Source of the DNA: Rhodoferax sp.
GTDB lineage: Bacteria > Pseudomonadota > Gammaproteobacteria > Burkholderiales > Burkholderiaceae_C
Length of the DNA: 64,000 nucleotides
Assembly: GCF_028689295.1 (NCBI RefSeq)
Contig: NZ_JAQTWL010000012.1
Span: forward strand, 1-64,000
Direction of reading: 5' to 3'
Shown one piece after another: positions 100 to 37,229 of the stretch. A program made the translations under genes and the position numbers. The notes beneath the pieces are model-generated. The model was not told the origin of the DNA, did no database searches, and worked only from the letters and a program-made list of their open reading frames with translations. Position 1 is the first letter of the stretch. Each line of letters starts with the position of its first letter.

Positions 100-135
100 A
101 TTCAAGATGGGTTTGCTGGGCGCTTACGTTTGATC
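100..135 (-). repeat. probable decayed CRISPR repeat at the trailer end
   Basis: Ends in GTTTGATC like the repeat and keeps partial TTCAA...GGG similarity; separated from the first clear repeat by a spacer-sized 33 bp. Confidence 0.4.
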
Positions 136-168
136 TCCAAAACTGCTACGCCCTTCAATCCGTCACAT

Positions 169-3100
169 GTTTCAAACTGGGCGTGAGCCCCAATCAGTTT
201 GATCAGGATTGAAATGAAAACAGATCGTGAATTACTGGAGTTTCAAACAGGGCGTGAGCCCCAATCAGTTTGATCGAAAGAACGCTGGTGGGGGTGACCC
301 TTGGGTATGGGGTTTCAAACAGGGCGTGAGCCCCAATCAGTTTGATCGTGGTTCCGGATGGGGATTCATGGGCGTTACCGGGTTTCAAACAGGGCGTGAG
401 CCCCAATCAGTTTGATCAGAGCCTCAAGCTCGATGATCCCAAGGTCACCTGGGTTTCAAACAGGGCGTGAGCCCCAATCAGTTTGATCTTCTGCTGTGGC
501 AGATTTTGCAAACGCTTTCTTAACGGTTTCAAACAGGGCGTGAGCCCCAATCAGTTTGATCTAAGTACACACGATTGGGATTTAGCAAAGCTGAAGTTTC
601 AAACAGGGCGTGAGCCCCAATCAGTTTGATCGAGTCGGCAGAAGGTAGCAATAGACAACGCTCGTTTCAAACAGGGCGTGAGCCCCAATCAGTTTGATCT
701 CAAATGGCCGATCCCGTCAACGCAGCGGCACAACGTTTCAAACAGGGCGTGAGCCCCAATCAGTTTGATCGCTTGATTGGTGGATTCACTTCTGCCATCA
801 TCCTGATGTTTCAAACAGGGCGTGAGCCCCAATCAGTTTGATCTTTTTCTTGCAGGTGAGCCGGCAGTGGGTGTTTGTGTTTCAAACAGGGCGTGAGCCC
901 CAATCAGTTTGATCAAAACCACGTACGCGAACGTGGCAAAGGAACTGATGTTTCAAACAGGGCGTGAGCCCCAATCAGTTTGATCTCGGCTATGGTCCTT
1001 GATCTACGGCTGTCAGCCGAGTTTCAAATAGGGCGTGAGCCCCAATCAGTTTGATCGCAGAGCTTGCCAGCATCAAGGGGCAGGAGCCTGTGTTTCAAAC
1101 AGGGCGTGAGCCCCAATCAGTTTGATCTGCTAACTGGTTCTATATCAGTGTCACCTTTTGGGTTTCAAACAGGGCGTGAGCCCCAATCAGTTTGATCGTG
1201 GTCAACGGCCTGTACCGCGACATCGTGGACACGCGGTTTCAAACAGGGCGTGAGCCCCAATCAGTTTGATCTCGCATCGTGGGTGAGGACACCGAAGCCA
1301 TCAAGTTTCAAACAGGGCGTGAGCCCCAATCAGTTTGATCGCAGCAGATCAAAAACATCAACCTCGCTGTAGGCGTTTCAAACAGGGCGTGAGCCCCAAT
1401 CAGTTTGATCCTCATCCCCTCGGGTCAATCGAAAGCGGCTTTGTGCGTTTCAAACAGGGCGTGAGCCCCAATCAGTTTGATCCTCATCAACATTCCTGAA
1501 TTCGTGGCGAAGCTCCTTGGTTTCAAACAGGGCGTGAGCCCCAATCAGTTTGATCAGGAAAAGCCAATGAAGAAACGCTTCGAAAAAGAGAGTTTCAAAC
1601 AGGGCGTGAGCCCCAATCAGTTTGATCAACGCACTCTCTCGACAATATCAATCCTGCATACATTGAGGTTTCAAACAGGGCGTGAGCCCCAATCAGTTTG
1701 ATCAGCAGACGACCACCGAGTTTCAACAAGTCTGTCAAGTTTCAAACAGGGCGTGAGCCCCAATCAGTTTGATCGATGCCGCCGCTGTACCCGTGCTCAC
1801 CGTATCAGGTTTCAAACAGGGCGTGAGCCCCAATCAGTTTGATCAAAAAACCTATTGCGACTGGATCAAGCGGTTTATTTTGTTTCAAACAGGGCGTGAG
1901 CCCCAATCAGTTTGATCCTCTGCGCTCAAAAGCATTATCAAGGCCAGCAGTGTGTTTCAAACAGGGCGTGAGCCCCAATCAGTTTGATCTCCCGTTGGCC
2001 ACGGCGCTGGCGTTTTTTGAGAGGTTTCAAACAGGGCGTGAGCCCCAATCAGTTTGATCAAAGGGCGTGAAGGACTGGGTCCTCACGTATAACTCTGTTT
2101 CAAACAGGGCGTGAGCCCCAATCAGTTTGATCTTCGCTAAAAACATCGGCTACCACACCAGGCTCTTTGGTTTCAAACAGGGCGTGAGCCCCAATCAGTT
2201 TGATCACGGAATTAAAGTGCTTGAGATGCTTGTGAAATATAGTTTCAAACAGGGCGTGAGCCCCAATCAGTTTGATCTGAGCCATGGCGCCCGATCACCC
2301 CCCCGGCGATTGCGTTTCAAACAGGGCGTGAGCCCCAATCAGTTTGATCCCACAACTGCTTTTCCGGCAGTTGTACCAGCCTTTTGTTTCAAACAGGGCG
2401 TGAGCCCCAATCAGTTTGATCCCGAAAAGCACAGTTTTCTGCTTTGGCAGATTTGTTTCAAACAGGGCGTGAGCCCCAATCAGTTTGATCTTCGGTCGCC
2501 CTTTCTTTTTTGGAGACATCATGGCGTTTCAAACAGGGCGTGAGCCCCAATCAGTTTGATCGCTGGATTCAGGCGCGGGGCTGGAGACTTGCAAGCAATG
2601 GTTTCAAACAGGGCGTGAGCCCCAATCAGTTTGATCTCAAGCCGCCTGTGCTGCCTAATTTGCGGCAGGTTGGGGTTTCAAACAGGGCGTGAGCCCCAAT
2701 CAGTTTGATCCAGCGATGTGGTTGTACTGCGCGAACGGATACTGTGTTTCAAACAGGGCGTGAGCCCCAATCAGTTTGATCAAAGGAGAAGTCTTCACTC
2801 TTTCTCCTGGCACCCAGGTTTCAAACAGGGCGTGAGCCCCAATCAGTTTGATCTCAAACGATCGATGACCCTCAACACGCCAGCTATCGGTTTCAAACAG
2901 GGCGTGAGCCCCAATCAGTTTGATCGCAGGAAAAGCATCCAGGCTTACGTCAATGCTTTGTTTCAAACAGGGCGTGAGCCCCAATCAGTTTGATCGCCCA
3001 ACTGTTGGGCTTCTGCTTGAACGACCAAAAAGTTTCAAACAGGGCGTGAGCCCCAATCAGTTTGATCAGAAATACTTTTCCACCAAGGAACACGCCATGA

Positions 3101-3722
3101 CCAGTTTCAAACAGGGCGTGAGCCCCAATCAGTTTGATCTCATGGATGATTTCGAGCGATTTCTCCAGCTTGCGATGTGGTTTCAAACAGGGCGTGAGCC
3201 CCAATCAGTTTGATCTTCTTTATGCACATGATCCAGAACACGAGCTTCTCCGGTTTCAAACAGGGCGTGAGCCCCAATCAGTTTGATCAAACTCAAGATC
3301 ACATCCAATGACGTTGAAGGTATGTTTCAAACAGGGCGTGAGCCCCAATCAGTTTGATCAAAAACTCATTGGCGAACGCCCGTTTTACACGATTGGTTTC
3401 AAACAGGGCGTGAGCCCCAATCAGTTTGATCGATCGGGATCCGAAGCGATACCCACCGACACTGCTTCGTTTCAAACAGGGCGTGAGCCCCAATCAGTTT
3501 GATCGCCATGATGGATGTGTGCGGCAATGACGCGCCGGTTTTGTTTCAAACAGGGCGTGAGCCCCAATCAGTTTGATCACAAAGGAGAATTGATATGAGC
3601 TATGGATCAGATACGTTTCAAACAGGGCGTGAGCCCCAATCAGTTTGATCCTCATGGCACTCATTGGAAAGATACCAAGGGTAACTGTTTCAAACAGGGC
3701 GTGAGCCCCAATCAGTTTGATC
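169..3722 (-). CRISPR. CRISPR array, 50 repeats counted by eye; + strand repeat GTTTCAAACAGGGCGTGAGCCCCAATCAGTTTGATC (36 bp); 49 spacers of about 32-40 bp; inferred transcription leftward (repeat RNA GATCAAACTGATTGGGGCTCACGCCCTGTTTGAAAC)
   Basis: Near-identical 36-bp repeats at ~71-bp spacing. The minus-strand repeat ends in TTTGAAAC, like type I/III 5' handles. Variant repeats at 169 (CAAACT) and 1021 (CAAATA). cas genes lie on the same strand. Confidence 0.98.
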
Positions 3723-3890
3723 AGCTCCCCCGCGAAGGGCGGCAGATCGTGGATTGCAGGGCGGTTTTCGGCGCGTGCGGAAAATAGCTGGAAGATCTGC
3801 AATTCCAGCACTAAGTTTGCCACATTTTTCAATGAAAACAATGCTCTGCGCAAGTTCACTGGTTCGCAGCCCCTTGTTGAGGGCAGTTTT
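3723..3890 (-). promoter_or_regulatory. putative CRISPR leader between the second cas2 and the array
   Basis: 168-bp non-coding interval on the cas-proximal side; AT-rich stretch; trailer-side repeat degeneration lies at the opposite end. Confidence 0.6.
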
Positions 3891-4175
3891 TCATATCAGG
3901 TAGTAGTGGCGGCTGGCAAAAGGGCGCACCGGGCCATCGTGTCGTATTTGCTGGCTGTCACGCGCGCAAAGCCGCAGGTACTGCACGGCGTCTTCATCGG
4001 TACGTATGCACCGCAGAACCCTGGCTTGAAGTTCTTCCAGTTCTGCTGCGTCAAGCTCGCATTCAAACACGCTCTTTTGCATGCGCTGACCAAACCCCTC
4101 CAACACCCGTGCGACGCGTTGCAGACGACCCGGGTGAGCAATGTCGTAGATCACAAGGTATCGGTAACAAGACAT
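3891..4175 (-). CDS. cas2: CRISPR-associated endoribonuclease Cas2 (copy B)
   Basis: 94 aa, MSCYRYLVIYDIAHPGRLQRVARVLEGFGQRMQKSVFECEL: Cas2 fold motifs (YDI, RMQKSVFEC). Confidence 0.92.
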   Translation of the reverse strand: MSCYRYLVIYDIAHPGRLQRVARVLEGFGQRMQKSVFECELDAAELEELQARVLRCIRTDEDAVQYLRLCARDSQQIRHDGPVRPFASRHYYLI

Positions 4176-4184
4176 GCCAGCAAT

Positions 4185-4517
4185 TTACACCAACCAGTAG
4201 GCTGGTGGGCTCAGACGCAGGGATCGCGCGCGCTGTGCTGCGGGCGTGGAGGGCGCCTCCCCCGGTATGTCACCCTTACCTTGCCATGTACTTTTTTCCC
4301 GGCAGGCTGTGCATTGTGGATAGTAGCTTAGCGCATCGTGCTCAGGTTCGGTGTGCCCGCTCAGTGCCTCGCACAGTTTGTCGTCTTGCCAGGCCTGCGG
4401 GCCACACTCAAACACACTGTTTTGAAGTCTGGTGCCTACGCCCTCAAGATGCTTGGCAACCCGGCGCAGGCGCTTGGGGTCGGCCACGTCGTAAGCGATG
4501 ATCCAGCGTTGCGGCAT
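4185..4517 (-). CDS. cas2: Cas2 paralogue (copy A) with divergent C-terminal tail
   Basis: 110 aa, MPQRWIIAYDVADPKRLRRVAKHLEGVGTRLQNSVFEC; tail contains YYPQCTACREK. Confidence 0.85.
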   Translation of the reverse strand: MPQRWIIAYDVADPKRLRRVAKHLEGVGTRLQNSVFECGPQAWQDDKLCEALSGHTEPEHDALSYYPQCTACREKSTWQGKGDIPGEAPSTPAAQRARSLRLSPPAYWLV

Positions 4518-4543
4518 ATCTCAGGGCGTTTGCGCAGTTGTGG

Positions 4544-6499
4544 TTACCGGACCTCGAAGCGGCAGTAAGCCGCCTGGCCGCGCAAGGCGCGCGTCCACAA
4601 CAATACCTGGCCATCAATGACGCGCCGCCAGTCAATGAGTCCACCATCGGGGTGCTGAATGGGGCTGGCGAGTTGCGCCTCAAAAGCTTCAATCAGCGAG
4701 CGCCTGGCATCAAGCTGGATTTCGCAGCCTGCTTTGCTAACGGTAAATTGTCCCGGTTGCACTGTTCCGGCGTGGATGAGCTTGAGCACCAACCGGTCCA
4801 CCAGCAGGGGGCGAAACTCTTCCATCAAGTCAGACGCCAGCGCCGCGTGGCCGGGGCGCAAGGCATGGTAGGCACCCCAATGTGGGTTGAGCCCGCGCGC
4901 GCGCAACAGGGCATACACGTTCCAGTGCAGCAGGGTGTAGCCATAAGAGAGCAAGGCGTTGACGGGGTCCAGCGGCGGTTGCCGGTTGCGGCCTTCAAAG
5001 CACCAACCCTCGGGCAGCAATTGGGCCCACGCCCCAAAGTATTCCCTAGCCCCGGCACCTTCAATGCCGTTGAGGGTTTCCGGGGTGTCAGCGCCTTTGG
5101 TGTGGGATGCCAGGTCGCGCAGCATGAATTCGCTGCCATGGGTGTCGGCTTGCCGATGGCGGCTACCACGTTGCAGCGCCAGGCGGCTGTTTTCAAGCTT
5201 GCCGCGCACGATGGCGCGTGCAGTTTCCAGGCGCCACGCGACGTCGGCGTGGCGTTGCACCTGGAGCATTTGCAGTTCAACGGCGCGCAGGTCCATCGCA
5301 TCGGCCACTCCGCAAAAGCGCCCTTGCGCGGTCAGGTAAGCCACGGGGATGGCGTGCTCGAAGCAAAACTGCAATGCGGGCGTGGTGATCTGGTTGTGTC
5401 CATAGATCAGCACGAGGTCCAGCAGGTGGGCCGGAATCTGGCTCAGGGTGGCGCCGTCTTTGGTGACGCACAGTTGCTCGCCGTCCTTGCGCAACTGGCA
5501 GCCTTGCTGGAGCAGGTACAGGGTGCGAAAGCTGTAGGCAGGTGGTTCGGGCGCCGCGGCGCTCGCATCGGGCTCGTTGCTGGTGGATAGTTGTGGCTCG
5601 GATTCTTGAAGGAGCGGCGGCTGCGGCGTCGTCTGAGGTAGGGCGTGTGCGTCCGTGATGTCGTTGTTGAAAAACTGCTTGCCAAGAAACCGGAAGCCGT
5701 GGCTGAAATGGGCAATGCGGGTTTTGTCGCTGTTGAGCCCGAGCTTGAGGTCTTGCAGTACGGTGCCGGTGAGTTCCAGGGCATCTTCGGCCCGCGCCTT
5801 TTCCCGACACAAAATGATGAAGTCGTCGGCGTAGCGCACCAGATGCAGGTTTTGCCCCAGAATCGCTTCGTCCAACTCATCAAGGTACAGGTTGGCCAGC
5901 AGTGGCGACAGCGGCGAGCCTTGCGCGATGCCCTGGGTGGGCACCGTGCGAAGGCCACCTTCGTCAATCGGCGCGTTCAGCCATTGGCCGATCAGGGTCT
6001 GCAAACGGATGTCGGGCACATGGCGCGCCACCAGTTGCCGCAAGCGCTGGTGGTCGATGGTGTCGAAGTAAGCACTGATGTCGGCATCCACCACCCAGCG
6101 AAAACCGGCATCGCGCAGTTCGGCGATGCGCGCCACTGCTTTTTGCACGCTGCGCTGGGGTCGGTAGGCGTAGCTGACCGACTCAAATTCCAGCTCAAAA
6201 ATGGGGCTGAGAACCAGCGCCACAGCAGTTTGCAGCACGCGGTCTTTTACCGTGGGTATGGCCAGAGCGCGCGGCGTTTTACCTTCGCGTGGCATCCAGG
6301 CGCGCTTGACGGGCTGCGGCTGGTAGTCGCCGCGCAGCACTTCTTTTTGTAGCGCCTTCAGCCGGGTCGGCGCACTGAGCGCGAAGTCTTGCAGACTGAC
6401 GCCATCAATGCCGGGTGCACCGTCGTTGGCCAGGTTCTTTTGCCATGCCTGCAGCAGGTTGCTGGTGGAGAGGACGCGGCGCAGGAGCGAGGCTGGCAT
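4544..6499 (-). CDS. cas1: reverse transcriptase-Cas1 fusion (RT-Cas1)
   Basis: 651 aa; RT with RYADDFIILC and group II intron-like motifs (GIDGVSLQDF, QGSPLSPLLANLYLDELD), Pro/Ser-rich linker, then Cas1 with IEGAGARE, GAYHALRPG, SDLMEEFRPL. Confidence 0.97.
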   Translation of the reverse strand: MPASLLRRVLSTSNLLQAWQKNLANDGAPGIDGVSLQDFALSAPTRLKALQKEVLRGDYQPQPVKRAWMPREGKTPRALAIPTVKDRVLQTAVALVLSPIFELEFESVSYAYRPQRSVQKAVARIAELRDAGFRWVVDADISAYFDTIDHQRLRQLVARHVPDIRLQTLIGQWLNAPIDEGGLRTVPTQGIAQGSPLSPLLANLYLDELDEAILGQNLHLVRYADDFIILCREKARAEDALELTGTVLQDLKLGLNSDKTRIAHFSHGFRFLGKQFFNNDITDAHALPQTTPQPPLLQESEPQLSTSNEPDASAAAPEPPAYSFRTLYLLQQGCQLRKDGEQLCVTKDGATLSQIPAHLLDLVLIYGHNQITTPALQFCFEHAIPVAYLTAQGRFCGVADAMDLRAVELQMLQVQRHADVAWRLETARAIVRGKLENSRLALQRGSRHRQADTHGSEFMLRDLASHTKGADTPETLNGIEGAGAREYFGAWAQLLPEGWCFEGRNRQPPLDPVNALLSYGYTLLHWNVYALLRARGLNPHWGAYHALRPGHAALASDLMEEFRPLLVDRLVLKLIHAGTVQPGQFTVSKAGCEIQLDARRSLIEAFEAQLASPIQHPDGGLIDWRRVIDGQVLLWTRALRGQAAYCRFEVR

Positions 6500-6852
6500 A
6501 AGGGTTTCCCGCGCGGGCGCCGCTGTAGTGCCGAGCAGCTCAGGCGCTGCAGCCAGCCGAGTTCTATGGGCAGTGCGCTCATCTCGTCAAGACTCAAGAC
6601 CCGCCCTTCCGGCAGGCGTTGCAGAAAACGCAGCACCAGAGCGGCATCGCCCGGCTGCAACATCACGCTGCGCCGCGCGACAGGCACCGGCATTTGCAAG
6701 CGGTGTTCCAGCAACTGCGCGGCGGCCGGGTGACCAATGGCGCTTTCAAACCCCGGGGCCAAACGTTCGCGCGCCTGCGCGTCGGTAAGTGGCCCGGTGA
6801 AGTCCCACCGGCCGTAGGCGGTGAGGATAGGGGCGTTGAGGAGGTAGAGCAT
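6358..6852 (-). CDS. crn2: DUF1874 / AcrIII-1-Crn2-like ring nuclease candidate; homologous part is about aa 1-104 (6541-6852), the tail overlaps RT-Cas1 out of frame
   Basis: MLYLLNAPILTAYGRWDFTGPLTDAQARERLAPGFESAIGHPAAAQLL...LPEGRVLSLDEMSALPIELGWLQRL matches the DUF1874 pattern including the SxIGH motif that carries the catalytic His in AcrIII-1. Confidence 0.85.
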   Translation of the reverse strand: MLYLLNAPILTAYGRWDFTGPLTDAQARERLAPGFESAIGHPAAAQLLEHRLQMPVPVARRSVMLQPGDAALVLRFLQRLPEGRVLSLDEMSALPIELGWLQRLSCSALQRRPRGKPLCQPRSCAASSPPATCCRHGKRTWPTTVHPALMASVCKTSRSVRRPG

Positions 6853-6858
6853 TTGCTT

Positions 6859-7722
6859 CTACCCAACGCTATGGCTTTCGTTCACAAGCGAATAGGTAAT
6901 GAGCCCATAGGGTGGAACAGTCTGGATGTATTGAAAATCAGCATCCGAAGTCAGCGTGACCATGGCGCCAGCGATGCTGGTGGTTTTTTGCCCGCCGGTT
7001 ACGTCGATCACGACATCAGACTCCACGTAATGTTCAGCCTTGGCCAACTCGATGGCTTGCGTGTAGGCGTGTTGCAGCCCCTTGAAATCTTCGAAATCGA
7101 CCGCTTCAACCTCCCGAATAAGGAACGGTTTGGTCCCAGCGGGTCGGGCCCAGTCGGTACTGTTTTGATAGTGTTCCATCCATTGAATGAATTGCTTCGT
7201 CTTTTGCGCCGAACCTCCGGCCCCGCTTGACGGCACCATGATCAGCAACTCCAGATCTTTTGCATGGTGATCGACTGCCCGTAGCGCTTGCTGCCAGTTG
7301 TGACGCTTCATGTCGGCCTTTGCTGCGGCAGGCGTGGGAATGGGCATGAGGTTGTCGGCCGCGTTTTCATACAGCACGATGGATTTTCCGCCTCCCAAAT
7401 CGAATCCTTTGACCTGCTCAGGCGGCGTTGAAAGCGTGACAACCAGCACCTTGCGTGGAACGCCACCTGTCGTTTGTTTGAGAACCCTCGGCGGTTCACC
7501 CCAGGCTGATCGGGTGGTGTAGAGCCAGAACGCGGCAGCGCACATAGAAATGAACAACGCGACTGCAATGAGTGCCTTCATTGCAAGTGGCGCTGGCGTC
7601 GCGCTGAACCAGTCGAAGAACGGGGGCACTCCTTTAATGGCGTCTGCAGTCCAGGTGCCGAGCAGAACAAACAAAATTGCCGGTGGCAGTGTGCGCAGGG
7701 CGCGCGAAGTTGATGGCGACAT
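6859..7722 (-). CDS. membrane-anchored CARF-domain protein (two predicted TM helices + CARF)
   Basis: 287 aa; hydrophobic segments ~aa 11-29 and 50-70; CARF-like VLVVTLSTPPEQV and DVVIDVTGGQKTTSIAGAMVTL; lies inside the type III operon. Confidence 0.85.
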   Translation of the reverse strand: MSPSTSRALRTLPPAILFVLLGTWTADAIKGVPPFFDWFSATPAPLAMKALIAVALFISMCAAAFWLYTTRSAWGEPPRVLKQTTGGVPRKVLVVTLSTPPEQVKGFDLGGGKSIVLYENAADNLMPIPTPAAAKADMKRHNWQQALRAVDHHAKDLELLIMVPSSGAGGSAQKTKQFIQWMEHYQNSTDWARPAGTKPFLIREVEAVDFEDFKGLQHAYTQAIELAKAEHYVESDVVIDVTGGQKTTSIAGAMVTLTSDADFQYIQTVPPYGLITYSLVNESHSVG

Positions 7723-7727
7723 GGTTG

Positions 7728-8813
7728 CTACTGTCCTGGAAAGAGGTGGGCCTTGAGACCAGGTCCGCAGTCACCTTTGGTTGTGCCAAGGCTATTGCGC
7801 AGGTAATCCAATGCCGCTGGGTACAGAGTGCTCGGTGGGGCCTGCAGTGCCTCTAGGGCCTTCACCAAGGTGTTTTGACTACCCTTATTTCGGCCGATAG
7901 AGCCAAAGCTCTTGCATGTCGCTTTGAAATCCCTCAACGGATCTGCCATCGCGACCAGATCGGGCGATGTCGGTGGCGCCTTCAAAATGGCATTGAACTT
8001 AAGCCGTCCGTAGCCAACCGCAGTCTTGGCGCCAATCCCGATAGTCTCCAGCGCATTGCGCATTGCGCCTCTTGTCGCCTCCGCTTCCGGATCACCCGTG
8101 TTCAGAGCTTTGCCGTCGCGCCGCGCAATTGAAAACATGAACCTCGTCTTTTCGGCCACGGTCAAGAATGGCGTCGGCGTCGGGCTGTGCCAATCGGCAG
8201 GTGGAATGTGTCCGGGATCGCGGTAGTAAGGACCGTAGTGCGGGGTGATGACATCGGCCTCCAGTCTGGGCACTTCGACGGGCAATGCGTCAAAGAAAAT
8301 TAGCTCGCCGACACCTTTGGAACTTGTGCCGACGTGCAGTTTTTCAAACCAACAGCGAAATGTTTCATCGCCCACCCAGTCACGCAGCCACGCATTGAGC
8401 ATGCCCTTGATGCTGCTACCGGGGATGTAGGGCAGGCCCAGCGTGGGGTGCCACAGGAACCCGTTTTCAACCGGGTGGTCTTGGCCCATGCCCACGACCA
8501 AACGGCTGGTGGTTTCAAAGTAAAGTGACAGGCCATTGCGGCTGGCACAAAGCGCCCATTGACGTGACAGATGTTCTGCCAGGAGTGGCAGTGGCGCTTG
8601 CTTGGCATAGTCGGTGCCGATAACTGTCTTGATCCATTTGAGTTTTGGACCTTCCTTGTCTTGAGCCGGTGCGCCAGGTATCTTCTTTGCGGCGAGACTC
8701 CATTTGAGTGGCTCGTCGCCAACCCATTGGTTGCAATACTTTTCGTACCACAGTCCAGCGTGACCGCGGCGTTCGGTCAACGCCGCAAGTGCGTCGTAAA
8801 CAGGGCGCTTCAT
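7728..8813 (-). CDS. cmr6: type III-B RAMP protein Cmr6
   Basis: MKRPVYDALAAL... FETTSRLVVGMGQDHPVENGFLWHPTLGLPYIPGSSIKGML; ATG overlaps cmr5 stop (ORF track extends upstream to 9002). Confidence 0.9.
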   Translation of the reverse strand: MKRPVYDALAALTERRGHAGLWYEKYCNQWVGDEPLKWSLAAKKIPGAPAQDKEGPKLKWIKTVIGTDYAKQAPLPLLAEHLSRQWALCASRNGLSLYFETTSRLVVGMGQDHPVENGFLWHPTLGLPYIPGSSIKGMLNAWLRDWVGDETFRCWFEKLHVGTSSKGVGELIFFDALPVEVPRLEADVITPHYGPYYRDPGHIPPADWHSPTPTPFLTVAEKTRFMFSIARRDGKALNTGDPEAEATRGAMRNALETIGIGAKTAVGYGRLKFNAILKAPPTSPDLVAMADPLRDFKATCKSFGSIGRNKGSQNTLVKALEALQAPPSTLYPAALDYLRNSLGTTKGDCGPGLKAHLFPGQ

Positions 8814-9235
8814 TCGTCGGCCCCAGCCGCGTTTCCTTCGGGCTTTTTGAGTTTGGCAACGGCAAATTTCTTCAACCACTCCAGGTAGGCCATGGCTTCT
8901 ATTTGGGCGCGCAGGTATTTGTCCTGGTTGCCAGCGGTCAGTTTGACCATGAAGTTCTCTGGCGTGGCATCGGATCCGAAAATAAGGCGCTTGCAGAGCC
9001 ACCCCGTGACGTGAGAATAGAGAAGGCCGTAGGGCTTGTCCAAGTCCCCCTCTGCTTTTGCCAGCGCAAAGGCCAGCGATTGGCCGAGCCCCAGGCTGCG
9101 GATGTTGGCGGGCAGGGCTTTGACGTATGCCAGATAGTTGCCGTAACTCGCGGGAGCGCCGGGGGCATTGACAATGTTTGCGATCTGTTCAAGCGCATCT
9201 CTGGCGCGTTGCTGGGCTAGTAGTTCTGTGGCCAT
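8810..9235 (-). CDS. cmr5: type III-B small subunit Cmr5
   Basis: 141 aa, MATELLAQQRARDALEQIANIV...YVKALPANIRSLGLGQSLAFALAK. Confidence 0.9.
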   Translation of the reverse strand: MATELLAQQRARDALEQIANIVNAPGAPASYGNYLAYVKALPANIRSLGLGQSLAFALAKAEGDLDKPYGLLYSHVTGWLCKRLIFGSDATPENFMVKLTAGNQDKYLRAQIEAMAYLEWLKKFAVAKLKKPEGNAAGADE

Positions 9236-10078
9236 TTACGCCCCCTGTTGCTGCGCGGTGCAGTTGTGAGAAAACCAACCCAGCCCGGTGGTTTCGCCGG
9301 CGCCAATTTGGAGGTGTGGCCGGCCTGTCAACTCCTTGCGTGCGGCCTTCATCGCTTCACGTTGATCTTCCGGTTTCAAAGTCGGGCGCGGAAGTATCAG
9401 CCCGTACATCACGGTGTCAGGCGCCAGGGTTTCTTCGTACCATAGGTTGGTTGAAGTCTTGTTTTCGTCGAGAACGTTGTGCGCATTCACTGGCAAGGCG
9501 AATTCGGCGAACCAGGCGAAGTCGGCATCACTCAAGACCACCAGCTGCATAGGGATGCGTGCTTTGGCGTTGGGGTGCGCAATAAGGGACTGCAGGGCCG
9601 CGACGAGCCCAGTGAGCTGCTGCGGGTTCGCTGGGGCTGCCTTGTCAAATTGCCGCTCTTCAAGCTGAAGCTGAGGCGGCGATTCCGGGTTGGCACTGTG
9701 ATATTGCCCGCTCGCTACAGCGGGGATCGTGAATGCTGCAGCCGCCGGCTTCCCTGCCCGTTGCGCATCGCGCTGCAATCGCTCCAGCAGAAGCGGACAG
9801 GTGACCCAGGCGTAACTGCCAGCCAGACTGCGCACTGGCAGCAGCAGCAGACGTATGTCAGAAAAGATGAGTTGCCCGGCGTTCGCCTCACTACCGGTGT
9901 AAACGGAGCCCTCGCCAAACCAGTCCTTGAGTGCCCCCTTGAACGCCGAGCCGGCAATAACCGGGTAGTGTGTGGCGGCCTCGCGCGCCACGGGCAGGTC
10001 AATGGCGCCGCCGCCGGTTTCCGCGCCGTAGTGAATGGGTGTCTCGGCAATCAAGCCCAGCAAGATGGGAGCAGTCAT
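9236..10078 (-). CDS. cmr4: type III-B backbone RAMP Cmr4
   Basis: MTAPILLGLIAETPIHYGAETGGGAIDLPVAREAATHYPVIAGSAFKGALKD; internal start chosen within the longer ORF 9236-10387. Confidence 0.9.
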   Translation of the reverse strand: MTAPILLGLIAETPIHYGAETGGGAIDLPVAREAATHYPVIAGSAFKGALKDWFGEGSVYTGSEANAGQLIFSDIRLLLLPVRSLAGSYAWVTCPLLLERLQRDAQRAGKPAAAAFTIPAVASGQYHSANPESPPQLQLEERQFDKAAPANPQQLTGLVAALQSLIAHPNAKARIPMQLVVLSDADFAWFAEFALPVNAHNVLDENKTSTNLWYEETLAPDTVMYGLILPRPTLKPEDQREAMKAARKELTGRPHLQIGAGETTGLGWFSHNCTAQQQGA

Positions 10079-10116
10079 ATCAGTTCGTCCTTTGGAATCG
10101 TTGAATCGGGTTTGCC

Positions 10117-11202
10117 TTACAGCGCCCAGGCACCGACCATCACGTGGCCGTAACCCTGCCCACTGGCAGCGCCTATGCAGCTGTTGTGAAGATTCATGAC
10201 GGCGGCCTGGTCGGCTGCGTCGGCTTCCAGCCACCAGACGCTGCCGGCCGCTCGGGCGCTGCGCACGCGTTCGGGCATCCTCATTTGCGTGTCGAAGCCG
10301 CCAATGCGCAGCGGCCGTCCCAGGGCGCAGCACACGATGCGCCCTGGAACGCCCTCTTGCACCGATTTGCCTGGGCCCGTGCCCCAAGCGGCGCCCAGGC
10401 CGGCGGTGATGAGGCTGAGCGTGTAGCGCAGCTTGCCGTCAGCATCGGGGGCAAGCTGCGCGGGCTTCGGCAGTGCAACGGGTGCCGACATTCGCTCTAC
10501 CCAGACGGCGCGGCCTTCACCGCCCAAGGGCAGATGGGGCGCAGCCCCCCACGGCTTTGCAGCGGGCGTCTTAGGCAGATTGACAAGCAAATCAGTATGG
10601 GGGCCCAGCCGTATGTGCGCCGCGCTATAGAGCCGCCCTTCGATGGCGGCGCGATTCACAAGGTCTCGCTCCAGGCCCGTATGGCGTTCCGTGGACCACA
10701 AGGTCTTGGTGGCCACATGGCCCGCACGCGCGGGTGCCTGGCCGTCGAGCCAACTTTGATAGGCACTCACCGTCAGCCATGTGTCTTCGAGGGCTTTGAC
10801 GCCATCAGCTGCCTCGGGTGCCTCAGGCAGATGCACGCTTTCGCCGAGATCGGTCTGGAATTTCTCCCGACTCGGGCGCAACAAATGGACCGCGCCATTG
10901 GCGTCGCCCAGCAACGCCAACGGCGCGGGCAAAAGAAGATCGTGGTCGTGGTTGCCCAGCCACGGCCCGCGGCTGATGTGGTGCCCTGGACGGGCGCGCA
11001 GGCCGTCTTCATGATCGAAGGCCGGGTCGTGGGCCAATCCGGCACCATTGAGCAATGCGCTGTTGAGCGCCGCGAACACGGTGCCGGGATGTGGCGGGAA
11101 CACGCTGCTCAGGTAGGCACCGCCGCCCGCCTCGGCGTCGAAGCGCTCAGGCCCCCTGAAGAACAGGGTGTCAAGTGCGGTAAGTCTTAGCCACTGTGTC
11201 AT
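10117..11202 (-). CDS. cmr3: type III-B RAMP Cmr3
   Basis: MTQWLRLTALDTLFFRGPERFDAEAGGGAYLSSVFPPHPGTVFAALNSALL; ATGA overlap with the cas10 stop. Confidence 0.9.
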   Translation of the reverse strand: MTQWLRLTALDTLFFRGPERFDAEAGGGAYLSSVFPPHPGTVFAALNSALLNGAGLAHDPAFDHEDGLRARPGHHISRGPWLGNHDHDLLLPAPLALLGDANGAVHLLRPSREKFQTDLGESVHLPEAPEAADGVKALEDTWLTVSAYQSWLDGQAPARAGHVATKTLWSTERHTGLERDLVNRAAIEGRLYSAAHIRLGPHTDLLVNLPKTPAAKPWGAAPHLPLGGEGRAVWVERMSAPVALPKPAQLAPDADGKLRYTLSLITAGLGAAWGTGPGKSVQEGVPGRIVCCALGRPLRIGGFDTQMRMPERVRSARAAGSVWWLEADAADQAAVMNLHNSCIGAASGQGYGHVMVGAWAL

Positions 11203-13253
11203 CGCTGTACTCCCTTGGTGGCAAGAAAGCGCACCAGCAATCCACCGTCTTCCGCCAGGAGCGTCGGCGGTGCGGGGGTGGTGGCTCGGTTGTCGCGGCT
11301 GATGGCGAACAGTTGGCTGGCCAGAGCCAGCGCCGTCGCCCGCGAGTCGTCGTTGACTTCTCCAAGGTCGCGATTGGATAACAGGTCGGCGGCCCAGAGC
11401 TGTTCCACCTCCTGTTGCGGAATGCCCAACTCGCGCTGCCCTTGCAGGTCTCTGGGTGCCAGGTCGCCCCATCGCTCGCGTATGCGGTAAAGGAAGCCGC
11501 TGGACAAGGGGACATCGCGCTTCGCGGCGTCTTGCCCGGTGCGGAACTTTCCCGCCAAGTCCAGCACAGTGGCCAGGGGCGCGAGCTGATCCACCGCAGC
11601 GTCCCAGCACGCAACCCACTGCAAGTGCTGCCCGCCGGGTTTATGGACCGTCACGGCCACACTGTTGCGCCCGTTCTCGGTCTTGGCGATGTCGTCCAGC
11701 AAACGGCTCGATTCGGCCATGACGAACGACAAAGGCAAGTGATAGTGCGCGAAGACAATGCCCGCGCTGATGGTCCCGTCCAATTGCTGCCTGTGCATCG
11801 CCTCCTGGTAGGCGTGCCGCAGCGCCTGCGCGCAGCCAATGGCATCGTCTAGTGGCAGCAAGGCCAGCACGTCGTCACCACCGGCATAGAGCGCGGCGCC
11901 GTGGTGCTCCGTATCGACGATGCGCTGCACCTTGCCAGCAAAGTCGCTCAAGGCACGGGAAACGGCACCCGCCTCGCGGCCAATAAGCTTGCCGACATTG
12001 TCGCCGTCCATGCGCAGCACGGCATAGAACGGCGAGGGCTTGCCGTCGGGATCGATCTTCGCCAGTTGCTTCTGCAGCGGCAGCACACTATTGGGCGCAA
12101 GCAGCCCTTCCTTGGCCGCAGCCTGTAAACCGTCCTCATAAAACAGCTGCCCATCCAGGGTACAAAAATACGGGCGTGCCTCAATGCCTTCGATCTGATT
12201 GAGCGTTTCGCTGAACAGACCTTCCTGTGTCTTGGCTGCGCTCGGGTGGACGCGGGCGGCGTTGAGCGCATCCACATACGCATCGCAGCGGGCGCGGCGC
12301 GCTGGGTCCGCCTCTGCGTAAACCTTCTTGATCCACGGCAGTGCTGCCATGTAGGCCGTGGAGGGCCAGTTGCCCGCGCTCTGGGTAATGCGGTCTGGCA
12401 CCCAGCCCAACACCTCCTTGATGTCATCCGGGTGGAGCTTGGGCCAGAGCCGCTTGACAAAGGCGACGGCGCAGAGCCGTTCGTCGTCGCGCAAATTCAG
12501 ACGGCCCGGTCCGGGGTTGCGTGGCCCTTGACCATGGTGAACGCCGGGCACGTGGTCGCGGACCGCCGCCCAGAAATCGTCTTGCTTCTTGCGCAACTCT
12601 TGGCTACGGCTGCGAATGTGGCCCGACAACTCCACAGAGCCGGGCATGAGGCTGCAGGCATCGCCCGGCTCCTGCTGGTCGGGCTGGATATGCTGGCGCC
12701 AGTTTTTGCGCCGATCCAGCCAACGTGCATCACCGCCATCCGCAGGCGCTACACCCTTGACCCATTGAACATCCCAGAAGTTGGCGACCTGCTGGTCCCA
12801 TAGGCTTTCAGTCAAGGTCTTGTTTTGCGCGTTGGGATTCTTCTGCTTCTTGCTTGGCACGAAGATCAGATTCTTGTCTTTGAGGGCCGTAAGTGGAAGA
12901 AACCGCTGGCGCACCAGGGTTGCCAACTCGCCCCACTTCGTATGCACCGCATCCGAACATTTACTCGGATCGAAGTCCGCTGCAACTTCTGCTTTGAACC
13001 GGTTGGGCAGCGTGCCGATGAAGGGCGCCTTGTCGGCGTTGCCCAGTATGGCGCGCAGCAGATCGTCGGTGATGGCGTCACCGTCAAGCACCGACGGAAA
13101 CAGGATGCGCCCGCCGCTCTTATGGACCTGGGCCATGGCCACGCCCGAAAGCCAGGACAGTAGAAAGGAGGATGACCACAGGTCACGCGTGCGCCGCGAC
13201 TGCCCGATGAAGGTTTGGACCGGGGAGATGGTGAAGTGGAGGATGTGCGTCAT
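11199..13253 (-). CDS. cas10: Cas10/Cmr2 large subunit with GGDD palm motif; N-terminal HD domain not apparent
   Basis: 684 aa; begins MTHILHFTISPVQTFIGQSRRTRDLWSSSFLLSWLSG (cyclase-like D1 start); DGDNVGKLIG and YAGGDDVLALLPL. Confidence 0.95.
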   Translation of the reverse strand: MTHILHFTISPVQTFIGQSRRTRDLWSSSFLLSWLSGVAMAQVHKSGGRILFPSVLDGDAITDDLLRAILGNADKAPFIGTLPNRFKAEVAADFDPSKCSDAVHTKWGELATLVRQRFLPLTALKDKNLIFVPSKKQKNPNAQNKTLTESLWDQQVANFWDVQWVKGVAPADGGDARWLDRRKNWRQHIQPDQQEPGDACSLMPGSVELSGHIRSRSQELRKKQDDFWAAVRDHVPGVHHGQGPRNPGPGRLNLRDDERLCAVAFVKRLWPKLHPDDIKEVLGWVPDRITQSAGNWPSTAYMAALPWIKKVYAEADPARRARCDAYVDALNAARVHPSAAKTQEGLFSETLNQIEGIEARPYFCTLDGQLFYEDGLQAAAKEGLLAPNSVLPLQKQLAKIDPDGKPSPFYAVLRMDGDNVGKLIGREAGAVSRALSDFAGKVQRIVDTEHHGAALYAGGDDVLALLPLDDAIGCAQALRHAYQEAMHRQQLDGTISAGIVFAHYHLPLSFVMAESSRLLDDIAKTENGRNSVAVTVHKPGGQHLQWVACWDAAVDQLAPLATVLDLAGKFRTGQDAAKRDVPLSSGFLYRIRERWGDLAPRDLQGQRELGIPQQEVEQLWAADLLSNRDLGEVNDDSRATALALASQLFAISRDNRATTPAPPTLLAEDGGLLVRFLATKGVQR

Positions 13254-13260
13254 GGTTTAC

Positions 13261-14391
13261 CTAGATGTCCGTGCCAATGGTGTCAAGCCATGTATCGATC
13301 CATGCATAGCCATTGGCAGGGGGTGTCGGAAGCGACTTGGCCGTGCCTAAACTGGCCGCAACGCCATAACCGTATGGCAAGAAATCTGACTTGAATAGGA
13401 TGGCAACAACGCCATACGTCCCGCTGGCATTGTCACGATAGACGTGCAACAGCAAGGGACTGGCACGCCGATCTAGCTCCTTCAAATCCGTTCTGTCCGA
13501 CAGCGCCTTGGGTTTGTGGTCAAGCGAGCCCTTTCCGTAACCACGAGGCAAGCCAAGGTAGGCCCAGCTAACGTCGTCGGGTGACGACAAGGCAACTCTA
13601 TTCTGCAGGCGAGAACCGCCTGCAGCCGGTATCTCGGTAAGCAGGGACTTGAACGCTTTTGCGATCGCGTTCAGGGCGCCTATGCCTGTCTGAAACTGCT
13701 GTGGTGGCTTGTTGACGAGCACCACGCGACAAAACCGTCTATCCCGGACAAACGCCGAATACACAGGCGCGGCTACAGTGGCGGCGGCTGTCGGGATATC
13801 TCGCAAGACACTTGCGAACACCGCTTCATAATCAGCGGATGCTGTTGGCAAGGCCTGATCTCTGTCGTCAATTCGAAGCATTTGCAGCGTGACGCTGCCA
13901 AAACCGCGACGACTGCGGTAGCCAAGTCCACCAAACATGCCAAATAGCTTCAGTACATTGACGTATTCCTGCTGACTGGCACATGCGGCTGGCTTGAGAG
14001 TGAGTTCAATGGTGAATGTTGGGCCAGAGTCAGCGGCTTTGCCAAACCTGTTTGCACCCGTTTCAGTCAGCCCATAGCCCAGGTACCGTGTGTTGCCGTT
14101 CGCAACCAGCTCGGTGGCGGATTTGAGTTGAAGAGCATCGACATGGTTTGCAACCACCCGCAACAGGAATGGACTCTGGCCTTTTGTGCTACCGAACAAT
14201 TCGCTCTCGCGCGCGGCCAGTGTCTGGCAGTTTCCCGACGCGGCGTCAACCAGCTGGTAATTCATCGCCCGCCACCAAAACCGAAGCGCCGCCTTGATTT
14301 CACTCACCCGCAACTCAGGTTTTGTTTCGTCCGCTCCCGACGAAAATAAGGGCGTGTTCAAAGAAAACTTGGCAGTGATGCGGTGGTGCAT
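13261..14391 (-). CDS. cmr1: type III-B RAMP Cmr1
   Basis: MHHRITAKFSLNTPLFSSGADETKPELRVSEIKAALRFWWRAMN; first gene of the operon. Confidence 0.9.
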   Translation of the reverse strand: MHHRITAKFSLNTPLFSSGADETKPELRVSEIKAALRFWWRAMNYQLVDAASGNCQTLAARESELFGSTKGQSPFLLRVVANHVDALQLKSATELVANGNTRYLGYGLTETGANRFGKAADSGPTFTIELTLKPAACASQQEYVNVLKLFGMFGGLGYRSRRGFGSVTLQMLRIDDRDQALPTASADYEAVFASVLRDIPTAAATVAAPVYSAFVRDRRFCRVVLVNKPPQQFQTGIGALNAIAKAFKSLLTEIPAAGGSRLQNRVALSSPDDVSWAYLGLPRGYGKGSLDHKPKALSDRTDLKELDRRASPLLLHVYRDNASGTYGVVAILFKSDFLPYGYGVAASLGTAKSLPTPPANGYAWIDTWLDTIGTDI

Positions 14392-37103: not shown

Positions 37104-37229
37104 TGCATCAGGCCCTTCCAACGCCACTGTCGCATCCGCCAAACGGTCAAGCCGTGACGCGGGAGGTTAATTTAACCATCAGCTTTAACCAGCCAAAGTT
37201 TCCCCAAGGGAAATGAAAGTCAGCGAAAC

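Follow-up and report, generated by a model that had tools for sequence, protein, structure and literature searches.

What kind of immune response does a CRISPR-Cas operon specify when its only recognizable effector is predicted to lie in the membrane, a putative ring nuclease is encoded beside that effector, and its adaptation genes include a reverse transcriptase (RT) fused to cas1? Such an operon occupies positions 14391 to 3891 of the minus strand in a 64,000-nucleotide stretch of Rhodoferax sp. (assembly GCF_028689295.1, contig NZ_JAQTWL010000012.1), hereafter the window. We conclude that the operon very probably encodes a type III-B (Cmr) CRISPR-Cas system with RT-Cas1 adaptation and a cyclic-oligoadenylate pathway, in which a Cam1-type membrane effector containing transmembrane helices and a CARF domain (TM-CARF) would respond to the signal and a DUF1874 protein would reset the cell.

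This conclusion starts from the identity of the parts. In transcriptional order the eleven genes read cmr1-cas10-cmr3-cmr4-cmr5-cmr6-TM/CARF-DUF1874-RT/cas1-cas2a-cas2b, followed by the CRISPR array, and Cas10/Cmr2 is thus accompanied by Cmr1, 3, 4, 5 and 6, the combination that defines type III-B. Every gene lies where an earlier note, made from the sequence alone, had placed it, and the junctions (in order +7, -4, +38, 0, -4, +5, +6, -142, +26 and +9 nt) agree with its description of overlaps or gaps of at most ~40 bp. Because most profile matches to the operon proteins have E-values between 1e-16 and 1e-104, these identities are not attributable to chance. Scans for sigma-70 promoters and for terminators gave results no better than those obtained with shuffled sequence. 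The features are as follows, all on the minus strand (RAMP, repeat-associated mysterious protein; ORF, open reading frame).

13261..14391, minus: cmr1, RAMP subunit, 376 aa (TIGR01894 4.7e-16; PF03787)
11199..13253, minus: cas10/cmr2 with palm domain, 684 aa (TIGR02577 2.5e-45; PF22335; PF12469; motif scan)
10117..11202, minus: cmr3, 361 aa, start codon at 11202 (PF09700 5e-52)
9236..10078, minus: cmr4, 280 aa, start codon at 10078 (TIGR02580 9.8e-42)
8810..9235, minus: cmr5, 141 aa (PF09701 5.3e-30)
7728..8813, minus: cmr6, 361 aa, start codon at 8813 (TIGR01898 1e-43)
6859..7722, minus: predicted TM-CARF effector, 287 aa (PADLOC TM+CARF 2.7e-26; CARF8_TM 1.2e-23; CARF 2 TM 2.1e-23)
6358..6852, minus: DUF1874, predicted ring nuclease of the Crn2-AcrIII-1 family, ORF of 164 aa (PF08960 5.7e-18)
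4544..6499, minus: RT-Cas1 fusion, 651 aa (PF00078 1.6e-33; PF01867 1.8e-83; 7kft 9.1e-72)
4185..4517, minus: cas2a, CxxC-type Cas2, 110 aa (PF09827 3.5e-16; tree and alignment)
3891..4175, minus: cas2b, CxxD-type Cas2, 94 aa (TIGR01573 5.3e-14; tree and alignment)
3723..3890, minus: probable CRISPR leader, flanked by cas2b and by the array end whose repeats are perfect
169..3722, minus: CRISPR array, 50 repeats and 49 spacers (repeat detection; repeat fold)

The cyclase motif of Cas10 is intact (GGDD at residue 458), and a motif scan of this protein found no HD dipeptide. These features suggest a pathway in which the complex of Cmr proteins and CRISPR RNA (crRNA) would bind invader RNA, and Cas10, possessing a cyclase motif and no HD nuclease, would make cyclic oligoadenylate, most likely cyclic tetra-adenylate (cA4). 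The signal would then bind the CARF domain of a two-helix, Cam1-type membrane protein, which once activated would perturb the inner membrane and arrest growth until the DUF1874 protein cleaved the signal and reset the cell. RT-Cas1 and the Cas2a/Cas2b pair, for their part, would add spacers drawn from RNA as well as DNA. The same wiring had been put forward in the earlier note, and it is supported by the protein families, catalytic residues, predicted fold and comparative genomics described below. If it holds, the locus offers a compact and near-complete natural set for a reversible membrane response with RNA-derived memory, comprising one predicted effector and one predicted off-switch, uncomplicated by an HD nuclease or a further effector.

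The TM-CARF protein has no match in Pfam, and a plasmid search with it returned no match. An AlphaFold2 model built with six relatives (pLDDT, the predicted local distance difference test score, 75) contains helices at residues 3-30 and 46-69 and, after them, a CARF domain with a DVTGGQK motif, a two-helix prediction with which the match to the PADLOC 'CARF, 2 TMs' model agrees. When this model was compared with the PDB using Foldseek, Cam1 (8t66) ranked first (probability 1.00, TM-score 0.69 on Cam1); the next matches were Card1, Crn1-type ring nucleases and Can2, which are cA4-binding CARF proteins. Cam1 of Nitrosococcus halophilus is a cA4-gated effector that depolarises the membrane (Baca et al. 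2024, PMC10808066), and it shares with the Rhodoferax protein an N-terminal membrane segment, a C-terminal CARF domain and a location in a type III locus. Several observations weigh against a closer equation of the two proteins: the Foldseek E-value is modest (1.2e-3), a sequence search of the PDB with TM-CARF did not match Cam1, and Cam1 has 206 residues and a single helix as opposed to 287 residues and two predicted helices. Since the helix number differs, we term the protein, on the strength of its model, a CARF8-group TM-CARF that is Cam1-like and not Cam1 proper. A W/F-x-(A/S/G)-D motif closes the first helix in nearly all relatives (residues 24-27, window ~7642-7653) and is a candidate pore or gating residue. 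The helix of Cam1 likewise carries a conserved Asp, proposed to line the pore (PMC10808066), an analogy that is suggestive only.

Might the protein instead sit in the membrane as a sensor or ring nuclease, tuning or localising the signal, with the real effector encoded elsewhere? Only the second of its two helices is strongly hydrophobic, CARF domains can cleave their ligand, Crn1-family ring nucleases are among the structural matches, and two related loci (L064 and L065, see below) also carry a CARF-PD-(D/E)xK nuclease. However, TM-CARF is accompanied by separate ring nucleases, its best structural match is Cam1, and the operon contains no other effector, so that we strongly doubt this explanation and retain the assignment as a predicted membrane effector.

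The product of the adjacent gene matches PF08960 with 65.4 bits (curated cut-off 26) and AFV3-109 with an E-value of 1.5e-9, and it is 32-39% identical to viral members of the DUF1874 family. Residues H41 (in a SAIGH motif) and R79 and E82 (in RLPEG) are kept in its CRISPR-linked relatives, in an alignment that also included AFV6. The active-site His is essential in the Csx1-Crn2 fusion of Marinitoga (PMC7293037). Judged by family and residues, the protein is a member of the Crn2/AcrIII-1 ring-nuclease family, and cleavage of the cyclic signal is predicted. It differs from members such as AFV3-109 and the Marinitoga fusion in standing alone beside a membrane CARF protein, being neither fused to Csx1 nor virus-borne, and in having lost its stop codon. 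PADLOC recognises it (8.6e-42) with a model named Csx16 (PDLC01147); as this model also matches AFV6 ORF109 and a Bacillus subtilis protein, it appears to describe the DUF1874 family under another name. That name conflicts with the use of Csx16 in Hoikkala 2025 (PMC12409355). A further PADLOC model, CARF8--CARF_CSX16_TM (PDLC01940), joins by name the same TM-CARF clade to a ring-nuclease family, and our TM-CARF matches its second half; the window DUF1874 protein, in contrast, gives no match to it, and the fused domain therefore seems to belong to another ring-nuclease family. A viral contig (L070:3869-4255) bears a DUF1874 protein with 52% identity to that of the window over the best segment, a possible phage-borne counterpart.

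The DUF1874 domain itself comprises residues 1-104, and the last ~60 residues of the ORF are an out-of-frame read-through into RT-cas1 (window 6358-6540), which creates the 142-nt overlap. We considered whether the overlap reflects a programmed frameshift that fuses the DUF1874 and RT-Cas1 products, and rejected the idea: the relatives' DUF1874 genes have a normal stop, and no overlap exists in a related locus of Candidatus Nitrotoga sp. HW29 (L013). Loss of the stop codon is for these reasons the simpler explanation.

If the DUF1874 protein serves as an off-switch, its gene should keep company with that of the effector. We sampled other genomes with DUF1874 models (class and phylum), with TM-CARF (order) and with RT-Cas1 (84,980 species); the resulting counts are lower bounds, given the modest sample sizes and a search that misses some true matches. 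With the DUF1874 models, all four other genomes (G413, G520, G522 and G764; loci L062, L063, L064 and L069) had a CARF8-group TM-CARF gene adjoining in a type III locus. Both genomes found with TM-CARF (G260 and G373; loci L065 and L066) had DUF1874 less than 5 kb away, and the RT-Cas1 sampling added two loci with both genes, L013 and one from an uncultured proteobacterium (L016). In each of the eight other loci that have both genes, DUF1874 thus adjoins TM-CARF or lies close to it, and the CRISPR-linked copies are 52-60% identical to that of the window. The earlier note had suggested examining this linkage in relatives, and it was found in every independent case. Moreover, Csx3 (Crn3) replaces DUF1874 between TM-CARF and RT in Scalindua (L017:9385-9687) and in a deltaproteobacterium (L050:6417-6698), a non-homologous swap that argues for a ring-nuclease role of the slot.

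This linkage bears directly on the idea that the system is weakened by its DUF1874 gene, an anti-CRISPR acquired from a virus. The family does include many viral members (AFV, ARV, Bicaudavirus, Fusobacterium and Vibrio phages, and the viral contig L070), and a viral origin of Crn2 has been suggested (Hoikkala 2025, PMC12409355). Nevertheless, the stable position beside or near TM-CARF, the identity among the CRISPR-linked copies and the presence of Csx3 in the same slot all speak for host use, with which a viral origin is compatible, and we give the anti-CRISPR explanation a very small chance compared with a host off-switch.

The complete set of TM-CARF, DUF1874, RT-Cas1 and two cas2 genes occurs in the window and in three other loci: L013, assigned to III-A from its Cas10 and Csm genes, and L016 and L065, both III-B. 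L013 and L065 resemble the window in having these genes together; they differ from it in the Csm complex of the former and in the extra CARF nuclease and cas6 of the latter. III-B effector genes were found in the window, L016, L063 and L065, while L069 seems to be III-A, with an HD-type start of Cas10. In L063, the TM-CARF/DUF1874 cassette has an RT in its vicinity, together with a second ORF that matches RT-Cas1. The same III-B locus encodes, between DUF1874 and the cas2/RT genes, a 370-residue protein with a membrane-like N-terminus and no PADLOC match (L063:4891-6003). A tally of RT-Cas1 abundance in 399 genomes of the order (E <= 1e-100), which returned the window only, was discarded: it missed G260, although the G260 protein matches at 2.6e-142 by direct comparison.

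The recurrence of these genes means that one assertion of the earlier note, that the combination is unusual, does not stand. A ring nuclease accompanies Cam1 in 81% of loci (PMC12409355), and sensors, effectors and ring nucleases shuffle freely according to the 2025 classification paper (PMC12669027). The locus fits this published picture, and each pairwise principle is already known; it illustrates an established design well and is not a new kind of system, even though the papers examined here contain no description of the exact set of TM-CARF, DUF1874, RT-Cas1 and Cas2a/b. What the comparison adds, to a literature that counts Crn2 in only seven type III loci (Hoikkala 2025, PMC12409355), is a recurrent TM-CARF and DUF1874 cassette that is found alongside III-A as well as III-B complexes and in which an unrelated ring nuclease can take the DUF1874 slot.

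The adaptation genes raise the separate question of where spacers come from. The RT of the fusion is group-II-intron-like with a YADD motif. Among ten fused RT-Cas1 proteins of Proteobacteria (window, L013, L014, L015, L016, L020, L021, L048, L055 and L065), the (Y/F)ADD of the RT and the Glu/His/Asp-Glu residues of Cas1 are kept in all ten. The module thereby resembles the Marinomonas Cas6-RT-Cas1, the Thiomicrospira protein (7kft) and the RT-Cas1 of Vibrio vulnificus, in which RT is likewise fused to Cas1 with catalytic residues intact; as a difference, it contains no Cas6 domain, and no cas6 was found. Acquisition of spacers from RNA has been published for RT-Cas1 of Marinomonas, Fusicatenibacter and V. 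vulnificus (PMC11014452), and by analogy the Rhodoferax system may form RNA-derived memory. A contrary explanation is that its spacers come mostly or only from DNA: Marinomonas RT-Cas1 moved to E. coli took up DNA spacers only (PMC11014452), and no protospacer was found for the window's spacers in the searches described below. Given the intact catalytic motif of the RT, its conservation in all ten fusions and the published precedents, we regard exclusive or predominant use of DNA as unlikely, and favour a system able to draw on RNA as well.

All ten of these loci also have two cas2 genes, arranged in tandem or flanking RT-Cas1 (L016 and L020). In a Cas2 tree, which included no V. vulnificus sequence, a single change accounts for the 10:10 split of the A and B kinds (support 81/76; 90% of bootstrap trees). 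CxxC is present in 10/10 Cas2a and CxxD in 10/10 Cas2b proteins; in other RT loci, where Cas2 is single, it is mostly of the CxxC kind. Tree and alignment thus indicate that Cas2a and Cas2b are an ancient paralogue pair, and they may form a heterodimer. The papers examined here do not describe such a pair. We do not claim it as a novelty, as V. vulnificus has two different Cas2 genes as well (Cas2A and Cas2B, there with a III-D and not a III-B effector), and Gonzalez-Delgado and colleagues reportedly found in 2019 that both are needed in its RT-Cas1 system. The pair is therefore already known, and what is added here is its breadth across loci and the diagnostic residue.

An effector could be identified nearby in six of the ten loci, and each of these six has at least one membrane effector (a count from RT-positive loci only): TM-CARF in four (window, L013, L016 and L065), Csx23 in L015 and CorA in L055. 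The planctomycete RT loci L017, L018, L043 and L039 carry TM-CARF or SAVED-TM. It is tempting to speculate that proteobacterial RT-Cas1 type III systems are selectively paired with RNA-sparing membrane effectors, as RNA-degrading ones would destroy the transcripts from which spacers are made, though we lend this idea little credence. Were it true, selection would act jointly on the type of effector and on the chemistry of adaptation, with the ring nuclease allowing the cell to stay alive and draw on its new memory. A strict pairing beyond Proteobacteria and Planctomycetota was rejected, as Poribacteria have RT with CARF-HEPN and CARF-RelE. SAVED-TM genes beside RT/Cas1 in Scalindua and Brocadia (L018:8514-9092 and L039:5639-6193) represent a second kind of membrane effector.

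Is the system in working order? The repeat of the array is 36 bp long and occurs 50 times, 48 of the copies being identical; the 49 spacers of 32-40 nt are all unique. A degenerate copy at position 169 marks the trailer end, which places the leader at 3723-3890, beside cas2b; no second array with this repeat was found in the genome assembly. On the transcribed strand the repeat forms a stem-loop (-12.2 kcal/mol, z -3.5) with the 3' end UUUGAAAC, which we take to be the handle typical for Cas6 processing. Three points count against a functional system. First, searches with PF10040, TIGR01877, PDLC01477 and the Cas6 protein of L015 detected cas6 neither in the locus nor in the genome assembly, a draft that is 96.8% complete, and crRNA maturation is left unexplained as a result. 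The earlier note, whose list of parts and wiring are supported, had overlooked this absence. Second, the DUF1874 stop lies at about residue 104 in relatives, and the tail acquired here might impair the protein. Third, no protospacer was found for the whole array among phage and plasmid records, nor for three spacers among viral contigs.

The same points could be read as signs of a decaying locus that has lost cas6 and its ring-nuclease stop, so that the system would neither make crRNAs nor control its signal any longer. All four cas6 searches were negative, while five relatives (L014, L015, L016, L021 and L065) have cas6 near their effector genes. On the other hand, the remaining ORFs are intact with their catalytic residues, nearly all repeats (48 of 50) are identical, and the contig stops 168 bp beyond the array, so that it is possible that a gap in the incomplete assembly hides cas6. 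Otherwise a host RNase must process the crRNA. Host RNase can stand in for Cas6 in some III-B systems, as RNase E does in Synechocystis, and Cas6 is not a strict requirement for type III-B membership. Decay is in our judgement quite unlikely, and a functional III-B system with a presumed source of Cas6 or of a substitute is the reading we prefer.

Outside the CRISPR locus the window seems to be ordinary core chromosome. A sucA RNA motif (RF01070) at 37130-37225 precedes an ORF that starts at ~37176.

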